Shown here in pieces: positions 51,609 through 60,501 of a stretch of 64,000 bases of DNA (its first letter is position 1; every line of letters starts with the position of its first letter). Origin of the DNA: an uncultured Acidobacteriota bacterium (GTDB lineage Bacteria > Acidobacteriota > Vicinamibacteria > Fen-336); NCBI GenBank assembly GCA_902826455.1, contig CADEEV010000018.1, positions 1 through 64,000 on the forward strand, given 5' to 3'. The translations under genes were made by a program, and so were the position numbers. The notes beneath the pieces were generated by a model. The model worked only from the letters and a program-made list of their open reading frames with translations, searched no databases and was not told the origin of the DNA.

Positions 51609-52109
51609 TCAGGACGTCGCCCGGGCCGCGGCGCCGGGCTCGCGCACGAAGCGCGCGAGCAGCGTGTCGAGGCTCAGCTTGCCCGGGCCGTACACGACGA
51701 GCCAGAGCAGGAACAGCCCGTAGACGACCGGCACGACGTCCGTGAGCCCGGAGTCGCCGCGCATGAAGAAGGCCTCCAGGAAGCTCTCCTTGTCGGCGGT
51801 CAGGAGGGCGACGACCATCGTGGAGCCCAGCAGCGCGGCGATGATGCGTGTCCCGAGGCCGACGATCAGGAGCATGCCGCCGTAGTACTCGAGACGCGAG
51901 ACGAAGGCGGCGTTCAGCTCCGGCATGGGAATGCCGAGGTCCGTGAAGAAGGCGACGGTGCGGTCGACGTTCGCGAGCTTGCCGCGGCCGGTCAGGAAGA
52001 ACGCCTGACCGATCAGGAGGCGGGTCACGAGCGGCGGCAGGAACGCGAGGGTGGCGGCCACGACGAGTCCGAGGCGGGTGGCCCGCCGGACGGGAGCGAG
52101 AGCGGACAT
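51609..52109 (-). CDS. DoxX-family membrane protein
   Basis: 166 residues, four TM segments (for example PLVTRLLIGQAFFLTGRGKL; GGMLLIVGLGTRIIAALLG; PVVYGLFLLWLVVYGPGKLSLD). The DoxX pattern RL..G..F...G..KL is present. These quinone-linked membrane proteins are found in many oxidative or metal-stress operons. AGGAGG precedes the ATG. It lies between NDH-2 and cyclase genes on the same strand. Confidence 0.92.
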   Translation of the reverse strand: MSALAPVRRATRLGLVVAATLAFLPPLVTRLLIGQAFFLTGRGKLANVDRTVAFFTDLGIPMPELNAAFVSRLEYYGGMLLIVGLGTRIIAALLGSTMVVALLTADKESFLEAFFMRGDSGLTDVVPVVYGLFLLWLVVYGPGKLSLDTLLARFVREPGAAARATS

Positions 52110-52179: not shown

Positions 52180-53778
52180 TTACCGCACTTCGGCGTCGGC
52201 CAGCCGCCGGCCCAGGCTTTCCTCGAAGCTGGCACGCAACGCCGCCAGGTTCCTGGCGAAGGCCGCGAAATCGCCCCTGCCGATGCTGATCACGTCGGTG
52301 GGCTCGAGAGCGCGCACCGTGGCCGTCCGGGCCAGATCGCGCAAGAGCGCCACCTCGCCGAAGTACTCGCCGGCTCCGAGGGTCGCGAGCCGCGAGGGCT
52401 CGGCGCCGCCCTGCCGGACCACCTCCACCCGGCCCGTCTCGATGACGTAGAAGCGATCGCCGATCTCACCCTCGCTGACGATCGCCTCACCGGGCTCGAA
52501 GTGGGCGCGGTCCACCTTCTCCGTGCGGAACACCTTGAGCTGGACGATGTTGCGCTGGAACAGCAGGTCGAGGGTCCAGTCGAGGGCGACGCGCACCTGT
52601 CGTTCCAGGCCCGGCAGCTTGAGGAGGTAGATCGTGCGCCAGAGCCACCAGGCCAGGAACCCCTTGATCCTGAAGCCGAGGATCTCGGCCACCGCGCTCC
52701 GCGCGCCGAGCGACGCGAGCTTGCCGAGGCCGCCGAACACGAAGGGCTTCGGAGCGCCGCCGCGGATCGCCGCCACGATGTTGTCGGCGCACGTGTGCGC
52801 CTGACGGATGGCGTTCTGCGCCGTGGGGGCGTACGTGGTCCCATCCGCCATCGGGACGGCGGCGTTGTCGCCGAGCGCCCAGAGGCCCGGGTACCCGGTC
52901 ACCGACAGCGTCGCGTCCGTCGCGATGCGGCCGCGGCTCAGCGGGCACGGCAGCGTCTTCAGCAGCGGGTTGGGCGCGTTGCCCACGGTGCTGATCAGCG
53001 TCCGCGTCGCGAGCGTCGTGCCGTCCGAGAGGAACACGTGCTCGGCCGTCGCCGCCTTGCACTTCACGTTCAGCAGGATCTCGATGCCCCGCCGCCGCAG
53101 TTCGTCGGCGGCGTACTCGCCGAGCCCGGGCACCACCTCGGGCAGGATCCGGGCCTGGCTGTGGACCAGCACGAAGCGCACGTCCTCGGGGCGGATGTTG
53201 CGGTAGTGCGGCAGCACCAGGTCCACCATCTCCTGCAGCTCGCCGATCGTCTCGACGCCGCTGAAGCCGCCGCCGATCACGACGAACGTCGTGGCCGCGC
53301 GGCGATGGTCCGCGTCGGTCTCGATGTCGGCCTGCTCCAGGCAGCCGATCACGTGATTGCGCAGGTAGAAGGCGTCGCCGATGTTCTTGAGGGCCAGCGA
53401 GTGCTCGGCGAGCCCGGGCAGGCTCGACAGGTCGACGATCGTGCCGAGGGCCAGCACCAGGTGATCGTAGGGGAGGCTCCTCAGGTGCTTGCGGTCACCG
53501 GCACCGATGTGGACCTGCCGCGCCACGGTGTCGATCGACTCGACCTCGCTCGAGTAGAAACGCACCCCCGGCAGCATGCGCCGCAGGGGGTTCGCGATCT
53601 GGCTCGGCTCGATGGCCCCGGCGGCCACCTCGGGCAGCATCGGCTGGAAGACGAAGTAGTTCTCGCGGTTCACCAGGCTGATCTCGACGGACGCGTCGCC
53701 CTCGAAGCGGCGGCTGAGCCGCTTCGCCGTGAACGCCCCGCCGAAGCCGCCGCCCAGCACCACGATGCGCGTCGTCAT
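52180..53778 (-). CDS. Type II NADH:quinone oxidoreductase fused to a cyclic-nucleotide-binding domain
   Basis: 532 residues. The N-terminal ~400 residues are NDH-2: FAD motif VVLGGGFGGAFTAKRL, NAD motif FVVIGGGFSGVETIGEL, the GYPGLWALGDNAAVP motif and AQNAIRQAHTCADN. Residues ~365-400 give the membrane-association helix. The C-terminal ~411-525 form a CNB domain (FEPGEAIVSEGEIGDRFYVIETG; the phosphate-binding cassette GEYFGEVALLRDLARTATV). Ligand-gated NADH oxidation is a plausible role. ATG overlaps the preceding gene's stop (ATGA). Confidence 0.93.
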   Translation of the reverse strand: MTTRIVVLGGGFGGAFTAKRLSRRFEGDASVEISLVNRENYFVFQPMLPEVAAGAIEPSQIANPLRRMLPGVRFYSSEVESIDTVARQVHIGAGDRKHLRSLPYDHLVLALGTIVDLSSLPGLAEHSLALKNIGDAFYLRNHVIGCLEQADIETDADHRRAATTFVVIGGGFSGVETIGELQEMVDLVLPHYRNIRPEDVRFVLVHSQARILPEVVPGLGEYAADELRRRGIEILLNVKCKAATAEHVFLSDGTTLATRTLISTVGNAPNPLLKTLPCPLSRGRIATDATLSVTGYPGLWALGDNAAVPMADGTTYAPTAQNAIRQAHTCADNIVAAIRGGAPKPFVFGGLGKLASLGARSAVAEILGFRIKGFLAWWLWRTIYLLKLPGLERQVRVALDWTLDLLFQRNIVQLKVFRTEKVDRAHFEPGEAIVSEGEIGDRFYVIETGRVEVVRQGGAEPSRLATLGAGEYFGEVALLRDLARTATVRALEPTDVISIGRGDFAAFARNLAALRASFEESLGRRLADAEVR

Positions 53779-55388
53779 CGCTTCTCCCCCTGCGGCCGGA
53801 TCCCGGGAACGTTCAGCCGCATGCGGTAGAGCGCGCCCCGCGCGCAGAGGTACAGGCTGCGGCCGTCGGTGTCGCCCCACGCGAAGTTGTGGGGATGCCG
53901 CGGGGTCAGGATCGTCCCGAGGTGGGTGCCGTCGGGCGCCAGCACCCACAGGCCGCCGGGTCCCGACACGTAGACGTTCCCCTGCTGGTCGACCTTGATC
54001 CCATCGATCGCGTCCTCGCCGGGTGCGCCCGTCATGTCGACGAACGCGCGACCGTTCGTGAGGGTGGCGTCGGCCGCGACGTCGTAGCGCATGACGACCT
54101 TGCGCTGCGGATCCCAGTTGCCGACGTACAGCGTCTTCTCGTCGGGCGAGAAGGCGATGCCGTTCGGGCCGCCGAGCTCCTTCGTCAGCAGCTTCAGCCG
54201 GCCCCCGACGAGGGCGTAGACGCCCGCGAACGGCAGCTCCTTGCGCGGATCGTCCGCGAACTTCGGCAGCCCGAAGGGCGGATCGGTGACGAACAGGGCG
54301 CCGTCGGAGCGGTAGACGAGATCGTTCGGGCTGTTGAGGCGCTTCCCCCGGTAGCGCGCGGCCAGCACGGTCTCCCGGCCGTCGGACTCGACGCGGATCA
54401 CGCGGCGCCGGCCGTGCTGGTCGATCGTGAGCCGGCCCTGGGCGTCGAGCGTCAGGCCGTTCGAGCCCGGCTGGGCGTACTCGGCGATGTCCGCGCCGTC
54501 GTAGCCCGCGTTCTCGCGGAACACGGAGAGCTCGGCCGCACCGGTCGCGTACCTGTAGATGCGGTTCGCGTTCGGGTCGCTGAACAGCAGGGAGCCCGTC
54601 TCCTCGATCCAGACCGGCCCCTCGGTGAACCGGAAGCCCTCCGCGAGCTTGTGGAGCTTCGGGTTGGGCGGCACGATCGCGTCCAGGCGCGGATCGAGCC
54701 GCACGACCTCCAGGTTCACCTCGTGGGGCGGGACGGCGTACGGACCGCTCCAGCCGTCGCGGTAGAACGAGAGCCGCGCCAGACGCATCCAGATGTAGTT
54801 GGTGGGCGGATTGGAGAGCGGCCCGTTCGCGCCGAAGATCGCGAGCTCGATGCGCTGGCCCGGCTTCACGTCGCGCCCGACGACAAGGCGGTTCACCGCG
54901 TTCCAGCCCGCGATCACCGACCCGCCGGACTGCGCGCCGCGGCGTGGCAGCTCGCCGTCCACCCACACCTCGGCATAGTCGTCGAGGGAGGTCTCGAACA
55001 CGGCGGTCGTGCCGTTCGTCTCGATGCCGCCGACGCGCTCCGGGATCGTGAGTGCGATGCGGTACCAGTTGAAACTGAGCCGGCCCGCGCCGCGCCGGGT
55101 TGCCAGCGTCGTGGGATCGAGGGCCTGCCAGCCCGAGTCGTCGAAGCCGGCGACGCCCGCGTGGGGCTCGACATCGTGGGTTCGCGTCGGGTCGCCCGTC
55201 GGCTGGCCGTCGGCGCCCGCGCGCTTGAACTCGACGTCGACGATACGGGCATCCGCATAGCGCCACGTGCCCTTCACCGCCGCCACGCCTTCGGCGGTCG
55301 TGAGCTCCACGGTCGCCGCCGGTTCTCCCGTCGGCACCGCCGGCTCGACGAGCCCGGCGAGCGCGACGCACAGCAGGAGGGCGTTCAC
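53775..55388 (-). CDS. SMP-30/gluconolactonase-type propeller with an N-terminal jelly-roll domain
   Basis: 537 residues: signal peptide (MNALLLCVALAGLVEPAVP), a galactose-binding-like jelly roll (~25-235; FDDSGWQALDPTTLATRR; YAEVWVDGELPR), and an SMP-30 propeller (~240-530). Motifs include EGFRFTEGPVWIEETG, GSNGLTLDAQGRLTIDQHG, NSPNDLVYRSDGALFVTDPP and GGPNGIAFSPDEKTLYVGN. A close relative is at 42683. GTG overlaps the preceding gene's stop (GTGA). Lactone hydrolysis is inferred from family. Confidence 0.9.
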   Translation of the reverse strand: MNALLLCVALAGLVEPAVPTGEPAATVELTTAEGVAAVKGTWRYADARIVDVEFKRAGADGQPTGDPTRTHDVEPHAGVAGFDDSGWQALDPTTLATRRGAGRLSFNWYRIALTIPERVGGIETNGTTAVFETSLDDYAEVWVDGELPRRGAQSGGSVIAGWNAVNRLVVGRDVKPGQRIELAIFGANGPLSNPPTNYIWMRLARLSFYRDGWSGPYAVPPHEVNLEVVRLDPRLDAIVPPNPKLHKLAEGFRFTEGPVWIEETGSLLFSDPNANRIYRYATGAAELSVFRENAGYDGADIAEYAQPGSNGLTLDAQGRLTIDQHGRRRVIRVESDGRETVLAARYRGKRLNSPNDLVYRSDGALFVTDPPFGLPKFADDPRKELPFAGVYALVGGRLKLLTKELGGPNGIAFSPDEKTLYVGNWDPQRKVVMRYDVAADATLTNGRAFVDMTGAPGEDAIDGIKVDQQGNVYVSGPGGLWVLAPDGTHLGTILTPRHPHNFAWGDTDGRSLYLCARGALYRMRLNVPGIRPQGEKR

Positions 55389-56236
55389 TGCGCCCGCACC
55401 TTGACGGCGTAGTAGGTGATCGGCCCAGGCACGCCCTTGAACCAGTGCGGCACGCCGTTCGGGATCACGACCACGTCTCCCGGCTGGAGCTCGCGGGTCT
55501 CGCCGCCCTTGATCGAAGCGCCGCGGATCTCCTCGGGGCCGGTCTCCCTCCCCTCGACGATCGTGCCGCCCGTGACGAGCGTCGCCTTCCCGGTGAGCAC
55601 GTGGAGGATGTCCGTGTCCTTCGTGTGGATTTCGACCTGGCCCGGGCCGTCGCGACGGCTCGCGTGGATCTTGTACGCGCCGACCTCGAGGAGTGGCGCG
55701 CCCTTTGCGAAGCCGGAGGCCACCTGCTCGGCGGGAAGGAACGTGACGGTTCCGGGCGCAGGCGCGGCCGCCACGGCGTTGGCGCCGGCGATCGCGAGCT
55801 CCTCGTCCTGGGCTGCGCTCGAGGCGCCGCTGACGCCGACTGCGCCCACCACCTGACCGTCCACCACGATGGGGATGCCGCCCTGCAGGGGCGTGAAGTC
55901 GACCGTCGTCATGGCCGTGCGGCCCTTGTTGATGATGTCCTCGAAGACCTTCGTCGGCTTCTTGAACAGCACGGCCGTGCGGGCCTTGCCGATCGAGATG
56001 GCCGCCCCCGCCGGGAAGGTGCCGTCGATGCGCTCCACGGCCATCAGGTTGCCGCCCTCGTCCACGACCGCGACCACGCCGGTAGCGTTGTTCTTCCTCG
56101 CCTCGGCCACGGCCGCGCCGATCGCGAGGCGCGCGCCTTCGAGGGTCAGCGACTTCCTCGTTGCGACCTGGGCCTGGGCCGCGGCGGGACACAGAGCCAG
56201 CACGAGCGCCAGGACGACCGACCTGCGAATCCTCAT
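55385..56236 (-). CDS. Exported GlcG/HbpS-like (DUF336) domain fused to a cupin
   Basis: 283 residues with signal peptide (VVLALVLALCPAAAQA). Residues ~30-150 are GlcG/HbpS-like: ARKNNATGVVAVVDEGGNLMA, FPAGAAISIGKARTAVLFKKP, GGIPIVVDGQVVGAVGVSG. Residues ~165-280 are a cupin: YKIHASRRDG, HTKDTDILHVLTG (metal His/Glu positions) and LQPGDVVVIPNGVPHWFKG. HbpS-type domains bind haem or cofactors outside the cytoplasm; cupins bind metals. Function in the cell unknown. It heads the operon with SMP-30 and NDH-2 and has the GGAAT-N16-CCGAT motif upstream. Confidence 0.9.
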   Translation of the reverse strand: MRIRRSVVLALVLALCPAAAQAQVATRKSLTLEGARLAIGAAVAEARKNNATGVVAVVDEGGNLMAVERIDGTFPAGAAISIGKARTAVLFKKPTKVFEDIINKGRTAMTTVDFTPLQGGIPIVVDGQVVGAVGVSGASSAAQDEELAIAGANAVAAAPAPGTVTFLPAEQVASGFAKGAPLLEVGAYKIHASRRDGPGQVEIHTKDTDILHVLTGKATLVTGGTIVEGRETGPEEIRGASIKGGETRELQPGDVVVIPNGVPHWFKGVPGPITYYAVKVRAQ

Positions 56237-56265: not shown

Positions 56266-56291
56266 ATCGGACGGCGGCCCGGCCCTATTCC
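56266..56291 (-). promoter_or_regulatory. Near copy of the GGAAT-N16-GCGAT motif (site E)
   Basis: On the minus strand GGAAT (56291-56287), 16 bases, then CCGAT (56270-56266). It lies 29 bases upstream of the GlcG-cupin ATG, nine of ten motif bases matching. The -35-like half lies in the loop of a strong hairpin. Confidence 0.6.
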
Positions 56292-56313
56292 TCCGGGAAC
56301 AGGCCGGGCCGCC
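56273..56313. repeat. Strong intergenic inverted repeat (12-bp stem)
   Basis: GGCGGCCCGGCC (56273-56284) pairs perfectly with GGCCGGGCCGCC (56302-56313) around a 17-base loop, itself containing TTCC/GGAA. No T-tract follows on either strand, so it is not an ordinary rho-independent terminator. Could stall transcription from yhs or stabilise an mRNA end. Confidence 0.75.
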
Positions 56314-56334
56314 CGCGAGAAGGGAGAAGAGGAC

Positions 56335-56769
56335 CTACTTGCGCTCGACGTTCGGCCAGTGCGACTCGGCCGTGCCGATGATCGTCGGCAGCTCCTTCTC
56401 CCAGAGCTGCTGCACCTTCTTGTCGTGGTTCACGTACAGCCTGCCGTCGACGATCTTCCAGGCGAAGGGATCGGCGTCGACCGCGTAGCCCCGGGACACG
56501 CCGAAGGCGCAGAAGCCACCGAACCGGGGAGCGTACTTCGCGGGATCGGCCACGAAGGCGTCGCGGTGCGCGGCGCTCGCGAAGCGCCAGCGCGCGCCGT
56601 TCCACTCCGTCTCGAAGGACGACTGGCCTTCCACGGGCTTTCCGTCGGTGAAGTAGGCCACCGCGTCGTAGCCGGACAGCGCGAGGCCCTGCTTCGTGAA
56701 CACGGGCTCGGCCGCGTGCGCGGCGAGACCCAGAACGCTGAATACGAGTGCGGCCACCAGACGTCGCAT
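56335..56769 (-). CDS. Exported YHS-domain protein
   Basis: 144 residues: signal peptide (LVAALVFSVLGLAAHA), then a YHS domain with the core LALSGYDAVAYFTDGKPVEG, FASAAHRDAFVADPAKYAPRF split, and GGFCAFGVSRGYAVDADPFAWKI. A single Cys in GGFCAFG. YHS domains often bind metals such as copper. GGAGG five bases before the ATG. The gene is divergent from the hydrolase and within the GGAAT-motif locus. Confidence 0.93.
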   Translation of the reverse strand: MRRLVAALVFSVLGLAAHAAEPVFTKQGLALSGYDAVAYFTDGKPVEGQSSFETEWNGARWRFASAAHRDAFVADPAKYAPRFGGFCAFGVSRGYAVDADPFAWKIVDGRLYVNHDKKVQQLWEKELPTIIGTAESHWPNVERK

Positions 56770-56811
56770 GACAACCTCCATGGGTACGGTGAACGCCGCG
56801 GTGCCCGAAGT

Positions 56812-56826
56812 ATTCCGCGCCGGAAT
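56812..56826. promoter_or_regulatory. 15-bp palindrome ATTCCG-CGC-CGGAAT between divergent genes
   Basis: The palindrome provides a GGAAT on each strand. The plus copy is site A; the minus copy is followed 15 bases later by GCGTT, 22 bases before the YHS ATG. Back-to-back -35 elements of two divergent promoters would explain it. A dimeric-regulator operator is the alternative. Confidence 0.55.
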
Positions 56827-56847
56827 GGGGCGCACGGCGGCGGCGAT
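56822..56847 (+). promoter_or_regulatory. GGAAT-N16-GCGAT motif (site A)
   Basis: GGAAT 56822-56826 and GCGAT 56843-56847, separated by 16 bases. The hydrolase ATG is nine bases further on, so the transcript would be nearly leaderless. Exact match to sites B, C and D. Most likely an ECF sigma promoter (-35 GGAAT is typical of ECF factors). Confidence 0.7.
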
Positions 56848-56856
56848 GAATCCGCC

Positions 56857-57819
56857 ATGATGACCACGGCTCTTCTCGGGCTCGCCCTCGCGGCGGGCTC
56901 TCCCGACGCGACGCGCTACGCCACGGTGCGCGTCGACGGCGTCGACGTCTTCTATCGGGAGGCGGGCGATCCGGCGGCGCCGACCGTGCTGCTGCTCCAC
57001 GGCTTTCCCGCCTCGTCCTTCATGTTCCGCGAGCTGATCCCGCAGCTCGCCGGCCGCTATCACGTCGTGGCTCCGGACTACCCCGGCTTCGGCCTGAGCG
57101 CCTTTCCCGATCGCGGGGCATTCCCGTATACGTTCGAGAACCTGGCGCGGCATCTCGACGCGTTCACCCGCGTGCTCGGGCTCCGGCGCTACGCGCTCTA
57201 CATCCAGGACTACGGCGCGCCGATCGGTCTGCGCCTGGCCCTCGCGCATCCGGAGCGGGTCACGGCCCTCGTGGTCCAGAACGGGAACGCCTACGCCGAG
57301 GGCTTGAGCGATGCGTGGGGACCCCTGCGGGAGCTCTGGCGCGACCCGAGCGACGCGCATCGTGAAAGCGTGCGGGGCTGGCTCACCGCCGAGGGCCTGC
57401 GCCAGCAGTACCTGGCCGGTGTCCCTGAAGGCCTCCAGGCCCGCTTCAGCCCCGACACCTGGACCCTCGACTGGCTGCGCCTCAGCCGTCCCGGCAACGT
57501 CGACATGCAGATCGACCTCTTCTACGACTACCGCACGAACGTCGCGCTGTACCCGCAGTTCCAGGCGTTCCTCCGCGATCGGCGCCCCCCCACCCTGATC
57601 GTGTGGGGCCGCTACGATCCGTTCTTCACCCTCGCGGGGGCCGAGGCCTATCGCCGCGACGTCCCGGGCGCCGAGCTGCACGTTCTCGACACGGGCCACT
57701 TCGCCCTCGAGAGCCATGCCGCGCCGATCGGCGCCCTCATGCTCGCTTTCCTCGAGCGCAGCGGAATGGCCGCCGGCGCGGCAGCGATCCACGAGGCGAA
57801 CCGGGAGGATCGAGAATGA
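56857..57819 (+). CDS. Alpha/beta hydrolase (haloalkane dehalogenase/epoxide hydrolase-like)
   Basis: 320 residues. The oxyanion motif is LLLHGFPASSF; the nucleophile is Asp118 in YIQDYGAPIG, as in dehalogenases and epoxide hydrolases. The acid is in VWGRYDPFF and the His in LDTGHFALESH. A cap domain lies between. A short N-terminal hydrophobic segment (TALLGLALAAGSPD) may be a signal. The second Met (56860) is an alternative start. The stop overlaps the bufferin-like start (ATGA), so the two are translationally coupled. Substrate unknown. Confidence 0.88.
   Translation: MMTTALLGLALAAGSPDATRYATVRVDGVDVFYREAGDPAAPTVLLLHGFPASSFMFRELIPQLAGRYHVVAPDYPGFGLSAFPDRGAFPYTFENLARHLDAFTRVLGLRRYALYIQDYGAPIGLRLALAHPERVTALVVQNGNAYAEGLSDAWGPLRELWRDPSDAHRESVRGWLTAEGLRQQYLAGVPEGLQARFSPDTWTLDWLRLSRPGNVDMQIDLFYDYRTNVALYPQFQAFLRDRRPPTLIVWGRYDPFFTLAGAEAYRRDVPGAELHVLDTGHFALESHAAPIGALMLAFLERSGMAAGAAAIHEANREDRE
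57763..57788 (+). promoter_or_regulatory. GGAAT-N16-GCGAT motif (site D)
   Basis: GGAAT 57763-57767 and GCGAT 57784-57788, 16 bases apart, in the 3' end of the hydrolase gene. The bufferin-like ATG lies 27 bases downstream with GGGAGG between. An internal promoter for the bufferin-like gene fits. Confidence 0.65.
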
Positions 57820-58181
57820 AGAAGGACAAGCTGCTCGTGGCCGCGATCGCCGGCATCGCCCTGGGGGCCAGCGCGCCCGGCGCGGCGCGGGCCGACGAGG
57901 CGAAGGCCGACGTGAAGTGCTACGGCGTGAACGGCTGCGGCGTGCACGCCAAGTGCTCGGTGGCCGCGGACGATCTCGAGGCGATCAAGGCCCTGGTCGG
58001 GCCGAAGGAGTGGAAGGCGAAGTACGGGAAGTCCGAAGCCCACAGCTGCGGCGCCCACGCCAAGTGCGGCGCGTCGTCCAGCATCCTCAACTGGGTGCCG
58101 ACGAGCGCCGAGCAGTGCAAGACGGACGGGGGCTTCGTGATCGCGACCGAGAACGGAAAGAAGGTCGCGAAGAAGGCGTAA
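57816..58181 (+). CDS. BufA2-like periplasmic bufferin-type metallophore candidate
   Basis: 121 residues with signal peptide (AAIAGIALGASAPGAARA). Six cysteines in the mature part: KCYGVNGCG, HAKCSV, HSCGAHAKCGA, and SAEQCKTDGG. The pattern C-x-G-x-N-x-C...S-C...K-C...LNWVPTSAEQC resembles the bufferin A2 family of ribosomally made, Cys-modified copper-binding proteins. BufB/BufC maturation genes are not in the window. Terminator immediately after. Confidence rests on pattern, not alignment. Confidence 0.7.
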   Translation: MKKDKLLVAAIAGIALGASAPGAARADEAKADVKCYGVNGCGVHAKCSVAADDLEAIKALVGPKEWKAKYGKSEAHSCGAHAKCGASSSILNWVPTSAEQCKTDGGFVIATENGKKVAKKA

Positions 58182-58203
58182 CGGGCGGGTCGCTGCCGTG
58201 GCT

Positions 58204-58237
58204 CGGGCGTCCGGGGCTCCGGACGCCCGTTTTTCTT
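58204..58237 (+). terminator. Rho-independent terminator after the bufferin-like gene
   Basis: A perfect 11-bp stem (CGGGCGTCCGG at 58204-58214 with CCGGACGCCCG at 58219-58229), a GGCT loop and TTTTTCTT. Confidence 0.93.
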
Positions 58238-58245
58238 CCGCGTCG

Positions 58246-58271
58246 GGAATGCGACGCTTGCCACGGGCGAT
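58246..58271 (+). promoter_or_regulatory. GGAAT-N16-GCGAT motif (site B)
   Basis: GGAAT 58246-58250 and GCGAT 58267-58271, 16 bases apart, just after the terminator. The sigma factor GTG lies 11 bases downstream with no Shine-Dalgarno sequence. Probably the autoregulated promoter of the sigma/anti-sigma operon. Confidence 0.72.
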
Positions 58272-58282
58272 GCAGCCTCCGG

Positions 58283-58837
58283 GTGGAGGACACGCTGCTG
58301 GTCGACGCGCTCCGGCGAGGTGAGGCTCCGGCCTTCGAGACGCTCGTCCGGAATCATGGGCCCCGCTTGCTGGAGATGACGCGCCGCCTCCTGCGCCATG
58401 ACGACGACGCGGCCCGGGCCGCCGTCCAGGACGCGTTCGTCCTCGCGTTCGACGCGATCGAAGGGTTCGACGGCGTGGAGCTCGCGGCATGGCTGCACGA
58501 CCTCGCGCGGAGCGCCGCGCTCCTTCGCCTGCCCCGGCCGCTCGCCGAGGAGCCGATCGACGCGCTGCTGCCGGCGTTCCTGGACGACGGCCACCACGTC
58601 CGGCATCCCCACGCGTGGTCGGCGCCCGCGGAGGCCGGCGCGCCGGTGCGCGACGCCGTGGACCGCCTGCCGGACGCCTTCCGTATCGTGCTCTTGCTCC
58701 ACGACGGCGAAGGACTGGGAGTGAGCGCGGTGGCGCGAGCGCTCGGCCTCACCGACAATCTCGTGAAGCTTCGCCTGCACCGGGCCCGCCAGGCCCTGCG
58801 CGGGCTGCTGGAAGCGCACTTCGGGCGGGAGAACTGA
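58283..58837 (+). CDS. ECF-type RNA polymerase sigma factor (first of two)
   Basis: 184 residues. Sigma-2 region (~15-75): AFETLVRNHGPRLLEMTRRLL then AAVQDAFVLAFDAIEGFDG and LAAWLHDLARS. Sigma-4 region (~125-180): VDRLPDAFRIVLLLHDGEGLG, VSAVARALGLTDNLVKLRLHRARQAL. Both are more diverged than in the second sigma. The GTG start fits the site B promoter 11 bases upstream. The stop overlaps the anti-sigma ATG (TGATG). Confidence 0.88.
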   Translation: MEDTLLVDALRRGEAPAFETLVRNHGPRLLEMTRRLLRHDDDAARAAVQDAFVLAFDAIEGFDGVELAAWLHDLARSAALLRLPRPLAEEPIDALLPAFLDDGHHVRHPHAWSAPAEAGAPVRDAVDRLPDAFRIVLLLHDGEGLGVSAVARALGLTDNLVKLRLHRARQALRGLLEAHFGREN

Positions 58838-59085
58838 TGGGCTTCGACGTGACGTGCCGCGACTTCGTCCGGTTCCTCGACGACTACCTGGCGGGAGCCC
58901 TGGCCACCGAGCAGGTGGCCGCCTTCAACGACCACCTCGCGGCCTGCCCCTCGTGCGTCTCCTACATGAAGACGTATCGCGAGACGATCCGCCTCGGGAA
59001 GCTGGCGCTCGCCCCCACGAGCGAGCCGGTCCCGGACGACATCCCCGAGGATCTGGTCCGGGCGATCCTCCAGTCCCGCAAGTAA
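58837..59085 (+). CDS. Soluble zinc-finger anti-sigma factor (zf-HC2), copy 1
   Basis: 82 residues. Zinc finger HxxxCxxC: FNDHLAACPSCVSY, with a further upstream Cys in VTCRDF. There is no membrane segment, so it is a cytoplasmic ASD-type anti-sigma, likely redox- or metal-sensitive. It follows its presumed sigma (TGATG overlap). Copy 2 is 40 bases away. Confidence 0.88.
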   Translation: MGFDVTCRDFVRFLDDYLAGALATEQVAAFNDHLAACPSCVSYMKTYRETIRLGKLALAPTSEPVPDDIPEDLVRAILQSRK

Positions 59086-59125
59086 CCTCCGGCGTTCCTC
59101 GGCATCTGAAGCTCCGAGGACGAAG

Positions 59126-59380
59126 GTGAAGCCATCCCTGACGTGTCGCGAGTTCGTCGAGTTCCTGGACCGCTATCTCTGCCGGGAGCTGCCGGCCGAG
59201 ACCTCGGCCCGCTTCGACGCGCACCTGGCCTGCTGCCCCACGTGCTCGGCCTACGCGAGCACGTACCGCGAGACGGTCGCCCTCGCCCGCCGCGCCTTCG
59301 AGGCCGACGACGCGCCGGTCTCGGGCGTGCCCGAGGAGCTGGTGCTCGCGATCCTGGCCGCGTCCCGCCCCACGACGTAA
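59126..59380 (+). CDS. Soluble zinc-finger anti-sigma factor (zf-HC2), copy 2
   Basis: 84 residues, clearly duplicated from copy 1: LTCREFVEFLDRYLCRELPAE vs VTCRDFVRFLDDYL. The finger is FDAHLACCPTCSAY, with an extra Cys. GTG start, weak ribosome site. It precedes the second sigma, to which it may be dedicated. Confidence 0.88.
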   Translation: MKPSLTCREFVEFLDRYLCRELPAETSARFDAHLACCPTCSAYASTYRETVALARRAFEADDAPVSGVPEELVLAILAASRPTT

Positions 59381-59435
59381 CCCCGGCCCACCCGCGGCAT
59401 CCAAGGGTGCGACGCCAAACAGGAAGGGATGCCAC

Positions 59436-59996
59436 ATGCTGGAAGCCACGCTGACGACCCCGGTCCTCGAGACGCTCACGACGCAGCCCAGCCGTAGCCT
59501 GACCCTGGAGGAGCGCTTCGAGACCGAGGCCATGCCGCACATGCGCCAGCTGTACGGCACCGCCTACCGGCTCACGCGCAACGCCGCCGACGCCGAGGAC
59601 CTGGTCCAGGAGACGTTCCTGCGCGCCTATCGCGCCTTCGCCGGCTACACCCCCGACACCAACGTGCGCGCCTGGCTCTACACGATCCTCTACCGCGTGC
59701 GCGCCGACCACTACCGGCGCGTGGGCCGCTCGCCGCAGACGGTCGAGCTGCTCGACGAGGGCCCGGCCGTCGCGCCTCCCCAGGACGCGATGGCCCAGGG
59801 CCAGGAGGAGATCGCGCGCGCCCTGGCCGCGTTGCCCGAGGCGTTCCGGGCTGCCGTCGTCCTCCGCGACATGCAGGACTTCAGCTACGACGAGATCGCG
59901 GGGATCCTCGCGGTCCCCATCGGCACGGTGATGTCGCGCATCCATCGCGGCCGCGCCCTGCTGCGCACGGCGCTCGCCGGGGTGGTTCGCTCGTGA
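59436..59996 (+). CDS. ECF-type RNA polymerase sigma factor (second of two)
   Basis: 186 residues. Sigma-2: RQLYGTAYRLTRNAADAEDL, VQETFLRAYRAFAGY, NVRAWLYTILYRV. Sigma-4: LAALPEAFRAAVVLRDMQDF, YDEIAGILAVPIGTVMSRIHRGRALLR split. A canonical ECF group member. AGGAAGGG precedes the ATG. The stop overlaps the cupin-like GTG as GTGA. Confidence 0.95.
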   Translation: MLEATLTTPVLETLTTQPSRSLTLEERFETEAMPHMRQLYGTAYRLTRNAADAEDLVQETFLRAYRAFAGYTPDTNVRAWLYTILYRVRADHYRRVGRSPQTVELLDEGPAVAPPQDAMAQGQEEIARALAALPEAFRAAVVLRDMQDFSYDEIAGILAVPIGTVMSRIHRGRALLRTALAGVVRS

Positions 59997-60277
59997 CCCA
60001 GCGGTACGTCGGCGGCCGCAACCTGCTCACGAGGCACGAGGCCGCTGGCTACGGCGGCCTGTTGGTCGTCAAGCCGGGTCCTCTCTGGAGCGTATCGGTC
60101 ATCGTGCCGGAGGAGGGCCAGACGATCGAGGCCCGGGGCGGCGAGACCGTCTACGCCTACGAGACGGTCGACGGTGGGCGGGCCGAGGGCTTCGAGCTCG
60201 GCCCCGGCGACCAGGCCACGCTGATCCGCGCCGGCCTCCCCCACTCCTTCGTCGAGTGGCGGGTCGAGAGGGCCTGA
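59993..60277 (+). CDS. Small cupin-like protein coupled to an ECF sigma gene
   Basis: 94 residues, soluble, all-beta in pattern (GGLLVVKPGPLWSVSVIVPE; YAYETVDGGRAEGFELGPGD; LIRAGLPHSFVEWRV). The end looks like the second cupin motif (GLPHSF). Metal ligands are few. GTGA overlap with the sigma factor suggests tight coupling. Some anti-sigma factors (ChrR) carry a cupin, which makes a regulatory role possible. Not proven. Confidence 0.7.
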   Translation: MTQRYVGGRNLLTRHEAAGYGGLLVVKPGPLWSVSVIVPEEGQTIEARGGETVYAYETVDGGRAEGFELGPGDQATLIRAGLPHSFVEWRVERA

Positions 60278-60282
60278 GGGCC

Positions 60283-60308
60283 GGAATATCCGCCGTGCCG
60301 CCCGCGAT
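60283..60308 (+). promoter_or_regulatory. GGAAT-N16-GCGAT motif (site C)
   Basis: GGAAT 60283-60287 and GCGAT 60304-60308, 16 bases apart, six bases after the cupin-like stop. It lies 22 bases before the ATG of a 56-codon gene. It may drive the operon to the DnaJ-like gene. Confidence 0.68.
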
Positions 60309-60330: not shown

Positions 60331-60501
60331 ATGGCCGGTGCTCTCCAGGACGTGACGACGCGGACGAACGATGGGATCGAGGCGCGGGAGCTCGACGTGC
60401 GGGCGCTGCTGAAGGCGCTCCCCGAGCCCGAGATGCCGGAAGGCCTGGAAGACCGACTGCGCGCGTTCCTGCAAGGACGTCGGGGGTTCGTCGGTCACTG
60501 A
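60331..60501 (+). CDS. Small protein of 56 residues, unknown
   Basis: MAGALQDVTTR... with the helix-rich core LDVRALLKALPEPEMPEGL and EDRLRAFLQGRRG. Third positions are overwhelmingly G or C, as in real genes here, and GAGGCGG precedes the ATG by about eight bases. Site C lies upstream. No family recognised. Could be a small regulator or anti-sigma-like helix. Confidence 0.6.
   Translation: MAGALQDVTTRTNDGIEARELDVRALLKALPEPEMPEGLEDRLRAFLQGRRGFVGH

Follow-up and report, generated by a model that had tools for sequence, protein, structure and literature searches.

A repeated GGAAT-N16-GCGAT element and a putative self-activating ECF sigma regulon in an uncultured Acidobacteriota bacterium

Introduction

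The best-described counterparts of the locus studied here are the regulons of SigH/RshA in Mycobacterium tuberculosis and SigR/RsrA in Streptomyces, which are controlled by extracytoplasmic function (ECF) sigma factors. For M. tuberculosis SigH, the consensus of the -35 element is GGAAYR (PMC4803200), the residues contacting the -35 bases are M181, S182, and R186, the -10 trimer occupies positions -11 to -9 in the open complex, and a change at any base of this G-T-T abolished activity (PMC6411747). Here we describe a repeated element, GGAAT-N16-GCGAT, in a 64,000-nucleotide stretch of DNA (hereafter the window; positions 1 to 64,000 of contig CADEEV010000018.1, assembly GCA_902826455.1) from an uncultured Acidobacteriota bacterium of the Vicinamibacteria, where it recurs around an operon with two ECF sigma genes, sigma1 and sigma2. 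We propose, with a probability of roughly 0.77, that this element would serve as promoter in a dedicated, self-activating ECF regulon and be recognized by sigma2.

The likeness to the SigH/SigR regulons extends to the GGAAYR-type -35 element, the distance from GGAAT to the -10 trimer (GGAAT-N18), the identical residues that read the -35 bases, the presence of CHCC zinc anti-sigma genes, and autoregulation as we propose it. However, the -10 trimer is GAT here and not GTT, sigma2 falls below the cut-off for actinobacterial SigH, the anti-sigma gene lies upstream and is of another type, and the target genes are different ones that cluster on a single contig. A second comparison is with the sigma2 orthologues found across the family and a further copy in the same genome (C54), which share their clade, -35 element, spacing, and first -10 bases with the window sigma2 but differ from it in having RCGTT and a downstream, membrane-anchored anti-sigma factor.

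In Bacillus subtilis, the related ECF factors SigX and SigW share their -35 element and are separated by the -10 element; in contrast to that pair, the split proposed here is deduced from sequence, and its two sides would be the copy found throughout the family and a further one attached to a conserved gene island. Caulobacter SigF has a promoter that differs from the window motif. The metal-stress regulon of SigF unites an ECF sigma factor, DoxX genes, and genes of the bufferin type in a single response (PMC3511200), and bufferin clusters contain sigma and DoxX genes (PMC12452194). An ECF sigma factor and bufferin-like and DoxX genes likewise occur together at the window locus which, unlike the SigF system, has no MNIO gene beside the bufferin-like gene and an anti-sigma factor of the zf-HC2 and not the NrsF type.

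Results

The element is concentrated on one contig and at one spacing

Six sites of this kind lie in the window:

56266-56291, minus strand: GGAAT-N16-CCGAT, promoter-like, before the GlcG/HbpS-cupin gene, with a 21-nt leader and a Shine-Dalgarno sequence
56792-56816, minus strand: weaker GGAAT-N15-GCGTT site before the YHS gene
56822-56847, plus strand: GGAAT-N16-GCGAT before the alpha/beta hydrolase gene, predicted leaderless
57763-57788, plus strand: GGAAT-N16-GCGAT before the bufferin-like gene (27 nt), with a Shine-Dalgarno sequence
58246-58271, plus strand: GGAAT-N16-GCGAT, putative autoregulatory site of the operon sigma1-ZAS1-ZAS2-sigma2-cupin
60283-60308, plus strand: GGAAT-N16-GCGAT before the gene of a 56-residue protein

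A preliminary description of this DNA had reported four exact copies on the plus strand, a CCGAT copy on the minus strand (56291-56266), an N15-GCGTT variant before the YHS gene (56816-56792), and distances of 9-29 bases from motif to start codon; all of these were recovered as described, and the motif observation is confirmed. The copy at 57763 falls inside the hydrolase gene, at the 3' end of its coding sequence. The sites of YHS and hydrolase are arranged back to back, their -35 boxes 5 bp apart. Well below one exact copy had been expected in 64 kb, and dinucleotide shuffles of the window indeed gave a mean of 0.11, with 0/100 reaching four.

The genome-wide search suggested in the same description returned seven exact copies in 5,258,802 bases (108 contigs), of which five lie on C18, the 88.9-kb contig that carries the window, while the motif read backwards as a control was found nowhere in the genome. 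Across spacings N13-N19 there are 41 sites genome-wide, and clustering on C18 is seen for N16 only: 0.096 exact sites would be expected there from the other spacings versus 5 seen (Poisson P ~6e-8), and P drops to ~8e-12 for the four sites of the 3.5-kb core. The relaxed pattern GGAAT-N16-VCGWT matched eight times on C18 versus 0 times in 340 kb from the rest of the genome, and relaxed searches with spacings other than N16 stayed at background level. These enrichments are based on genome-wide pattern searches together with the 340 kb of fetched sequence of the same genome.

Three sites outside the window came from the relaxed search together with inspection of the C18 sequence:

C18:72736-72711, minus strand: GGAAT-N16 site before the GMC oxidoreductase gene
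C18:78480-78455, minus strand: GGAAT-N16 site before a large glycoside hydrolase gene
C18:78491, plus strand: GGAAT-N17-ACGTT before an SDR gene, back to back with the glycoside hydrolase site

The GMC oxidoreductase and glycoside hydrolase copies lie 12-22 kb downstream. The regulon proposed in the preliminary description is supported, and the set extends further than described there, to 78.5 kb on the contig. A relaxed match at C18:83395 from the same search was dismissed because it is enclosed by long open frames and no gene begins directly 3' of it; also dismissed was a site at C5:161246 that is antisense inside a gene. One exact copy elsewhere (C3:199570-199595, minus strand, L001) stands 9 nt before a nucleotidyltransferase-like gene and at the end of another gene; it is possible that this is a further target or a chance occurrence.

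The nine sites have the character of promoters

All nine sites were aligned on the -10 element and compared for features that had not been used in finding them. GGAAT is followed by A or G in 9/9 sites versus 42% in this genome, and nine bases past the -10 element a C is present in 9/9 sites, followed by a purine in 8/9. A column as strong as that C appears in 0.8% of random nine-sequence sets, and other than the two boxes and the C the sites share little sequence. The -10 element reads CGAT in seven of the nine C18 sites and CGTT in the remaining two (YHS and SDR).

These purine and C columns are such as promoters would carry. The C with its purine would form a pyrimidine-purine start, and transcription is predicted to begin at the C or one base past it, since positions were counted as in the SigH open complex. 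Counted from there, leaders measure ~13-21 nt where a Shine-Dalgarno sequence is present and 0-3 nt for hydrolase, sigma1, and glycoside hydrolase, whose transcripts are predicted to be leaderless or nearly so. As is characteristic of an ECF regulon, a two-box promoter-like element with rigid spacing is found upstream of both the putative targets and the sigma operon.

Sigma2 resembles SigH and belongs to a clade with nearly the same site

The regulatory genes of the operon are the following:

58283-58837, plus strand: sigma1, first ECF sigma factor, of another type and not the preferred reader, with diverged -35 helix and specificity loop
58837-59085, plus strand: ZAS1, soluble zf-HC2 anti-sigma factor with a CHCC motif, overlapping the sigma1 stop codon
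59126-59380, plus strand: ZAS2, soluble zf-HC2 anti-sigma factor, 46% identical to ZAS1
59436-59996, plus strand: sigma2, second ECF sigma factor, SigH/SigR-like paralogue and proposed reader of the motif

Matches to PF04542, PF08281, and zf-HC2 exceed their cut-offs, as for ECF sigma factors with regions 2 and 4 only and an adjacent anti-sigma factor. The best solved homologue of sigma2 is M. tuberculosis SigH, and M181, S182, and R186 are all kept in sigma2 and its clade. With regard to the SigH/SigR (ECF12-like) traits, sigma2 has the -35 residues and its putative sites the GGAAYR element, while GTT is the -10 trimer in only two of the nine sites and GAT in seven; the score of sigma2 against NCBIfam TIGR02947 (SigH_actino) is 151.5 bits at a cut-off of 251.55.

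Within its own family, sigma2 nests in a family-wide clade (support 100/98). Ten family genomes contain a close homologue (orthologues in G002, G003, G005-G007, and G009-G013), and in 10/10 of them GGAAT-N16-[GA]CGTT immediately precedes the gene. The same applies to the C54 copy, which is 61% identical to sigma2 and has its own GGAAT-N16-GCGTT site upstream; the genome's other GGAAT-N16-GCGTT sites fall inside coding sequence or at its end and appear to be chance matches. From this clade site to the window motif, the middle base of the -10 trimer changes from T to A. The family genomes listed show no clustered regulon, and a search of GTDB genomes with sigma2 gave distant homologues only, most of which lack the motif. 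Separately, the sigma2-type homologues L052 (G054:C31) and L060 (G022:C24) each have one in-frame TGA within the match.

A probable exchange of the anti-sigma partner

The sigma2 copies of the family and the C54 copy are followed 3' by a zinc-finger anti-sigma gene with an apparent membrane segment. The window sigma2 instead has the soluble ZAS2 upstream, which resembles ZAS1 (presumed to pair with sigma1) and gave no alignment with the C54 anti-sigma factor. The simplest reading is that sigma2 exchanged its anti-sigma partner. Read directly from their sequences, ZAS1 and ZAS2 are both soluble and carry C-x25-H-x3-C-x2-C, the zinc-site spacing of RsrA; they score 24.2 and 27.0 bits against the RsrA model TIGR03988, below its cut-off of 62.5. 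Finally, the 56-residue protein is similar to an anti-sigma linker over 25 residues (48% identity), with neither a zinc finger nor a membrane helix present; it may be left over from a lost anti-sigma factor of the membrane type, or be a regulator.

The gene island exists elsewhere without sigma2 and the motif

The 94-residue protein encoded after sigma2 has one relative among the other genomes of the phylum sampled, in the distant genome G209. There, ~16 kb hold counterparts of the lactonase (58%), GMC oxidoreductase (71%), and glycoside hydrolase (58%) as well as of GlcG, YHS, aquaporin, glyoxalase, and subtilase genes, and further of a sigma1-type sigma factor, a soluble ZAS, and the 94-residue protein, with no sigma2 in this island. 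A similar gene set with sigma1-type sigma factor and ZAS but without sigma2 is present in a genome of the same class (G034), and parts of the island occur in G016 and G015. GGAAT-N16-CGAT is not repeated in any of these four islands in the 10-20 kb around the sigma1 homologues.

Due to the island copies in G209 and G034, sigma2 and the motif are seen to be present or absent together, while the sigma1 type is present without the motif. By the terms of the preliminary description, the regulon would be refuted if relatives carrying this locus lacked the motif. Formally, such relatives exist, but they also lack sigma2, which supports the assignment of the motif to sigma2 and does not refute the regulon.

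Other genes of the locus

Around the sigma operon, the window encodes the following:

51609-52109, minus strand: DoxX, just below the cut-off of the HvfX model
52180-53796, minus strand: NDH-2 with a C-terminal cNMP-binding domain (open frame)
53775-55403, minus strand: SMP-30/gluconolactonase-type protein (open frame)
55385-56236, minus strand: GlcG/HbpS-like domain plus cupin
56335-56769, minus strand: YHS-domain protein
56857-57819, plus strand: alpha/beta hydrolase, with an ATGA overlap with the bufferin-like gene
57816-58181, plus strand: bufferin-like protein, secreted and Cys-rich, below the cut-off of the BufA2 model
59993-60277, plus strand: 94-residue protein, judged cupin-like by eye; gene coupled to that of sigma2
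60331-60501, plus strand: 56-residue protein

Behind the minus-strand site at 56291 stand four genes close together, GlcG/HbpS-cupin, SMP-30 lactonase, NDH-2, and DoxX, all of which it is predicted to drive. The fusion of NDH-2 to a cNMP-binding domain is apparently uncommon. We do not file the bufferin-like protein as a bufferin because it reaches 27 bits against NF050166 (BufA2; cut-off 60) and no MNIO (PF05114) gene lies next to it, the MNIO genes of this genome being on C56, C1, and C13 only. Its homologues in L072-L074 (G013, G011, and G006; 46-56% identity) are flanked by membrane-protein and serine-hydrolase-like genes. No sigma gene was found near the homologues in these three family genomes, and their upstream sequence differs from that in the window and is partly conserved (GTTTCGG).

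Discussion

The regulon as proposed would work as follows. Sigma2, released from its soluble zinc anti-sigma factor, would bind GGAATR with region 4 and, with region 2, G-A-T where SigH reads G-T-T. It would then transcribe its own operon sigma1-ZAS1-ZAS2-sigma2-cupin in a positive feedback and also drive ~8 other units across ~27 kb. These would comprise GlcG-cupin/lactonase/NDH-2/DoxX, YHS, hydrolase, bufferin-like, and 56-residue protein units in the window and GMC oxidoreductase/glyoxalase, glycoside hydrolase, and SDR units outside it, and they would serve metal binding as well as sugar and quinone oxidation. We infer sigma2 binding, the start sites, and control by ZAS2 from sequence, and ZAS2 possibly senses redox or metal through its CHCC zinc site. 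Given this CHCC site and the bufferin-like, YHS, and DoxX genes, our guess is metal or thiol stress; for the regulon as a whole, we infer a metal/oxidative stress response with sugar oxidation. A compact self-activating ECF regulon was already the view of the preliminary description and remains the best-supported reading, and where it had left the choice between two sigma factors, the evidence points to sigma2 and not sigma1.

Several points weigh against sigma2 as the reader. The intolerance of SigH to changes in GTT means that sigma2 must have altered specificity, and at SigH positions 88 and 92 sigma2 has R and D, as do its GCGTT-linked relatives. Among the nearby differences, two are found in sigma2 alone: D in place of G75 in the specificity loop and H at position 93. 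The former was rejected as a simple explanation of the -10 change and is a lead only, given that the homologue L094 has E at position 75 and keeps GGAAT-N16-ACGTT upstream. No second genome with sigma2 and the GCGAT motif was found among the genomes searched, none of which is of the same genus. In addition, what holds for the sigma1 homologues need not hold for sigma1, which is itself diverged.

It is indeed sigma1 that lies directly behind the 58246 site, that is of the type common to the islands of related genomes, and that might have acquired an unusual specificity as it diverged. Sigma1, the presumed partner of ZAS1, could then read the motif, with sigma2 having another target or acting downstream. 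We rejected sigma1 as the reader and consider this arrangement unlikely, as no GGAAT-N16-CGAT was found within ~1.5 kb of ~18 close sigma1 homologues, and the -35 helix of sigma1 has K and L at SigH positions 181/182 in place of M181 and S182, the two residues with which SigH reads GGAA. Its region 2 is weak, its specificity loop is one residue short, and the L at a -35-contact position is unusual, so that sigma1 looks degenerate and may no longer be an active sigma factor. Even less probable, in our view, is that another ECF factor reads the motif instead of or together with the window sigma2, although at least 11 sigma1-like hits occur in the genome, the C54 copy shares the -35 residues, and the YHS and SDR sites have CGTT as does the C54 site. 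Against this, CGAT prevails on C18, and the clustering goes with the window copy of sigma2. The other candidate is a third ECF sigma factor, 48% identical to sigma1, that is encoded at C18:67525-68043 (L008:5513-6118, minus strand), but it has no GGAAT site upstream and a helix of the sigma1 type. Its gene directly precedes a subtilase gene, and this pair is kept in G209 (57% and 63%). That the repeats are no promoters at all but operators of a DNA-binding regulator, or a product of chance and composition in a GC-rich region, is highly improbable: the copy at 57763 inside coding sequence would fit such an origin, but the fixed spacing of 16, the placement right before start codons with Shine-Dalgarno or leaderless starts, the purine and C columns, the match to SigH-type promoters, and the scarcity of shared sequence elsewhere all speak for promoters.

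With sigma2 as the preferred reader, the locus most likely reflects a duplicate sigma factor with a site shifted by one base that would have rewired an existing gene set. A fuller scenario of regulatory capture, to which we give a little under even odds, is that a duplicated SigH/SigR-like ECF factor joined a conserved island of stress and sugar-oxidation genes that goes with another sigma type in other genomes of the phylum, swapped its membrane anti-sigma factor for a copy of the soluble ZAS of that island, changed its -10 trimer from GTT to GAT, which would avoid cross-talk with its sister, and gained at least seven promoters over ~22 kb of this island. If true, this would be a before-and-after case of a sigma factor changing its recognition code and gaining a regulon, in which the ancestral promoter and sigma factor persist in the same genome and ten relatives and the island exists elsewhere without either. 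With a single base changed in the -10 element and few residues changed in the specificity region, this sigma-promoter code would be directly testable, and a stress regulon of the Acidobacteriota would gain a predicted promoter, a reader, and a gene list.

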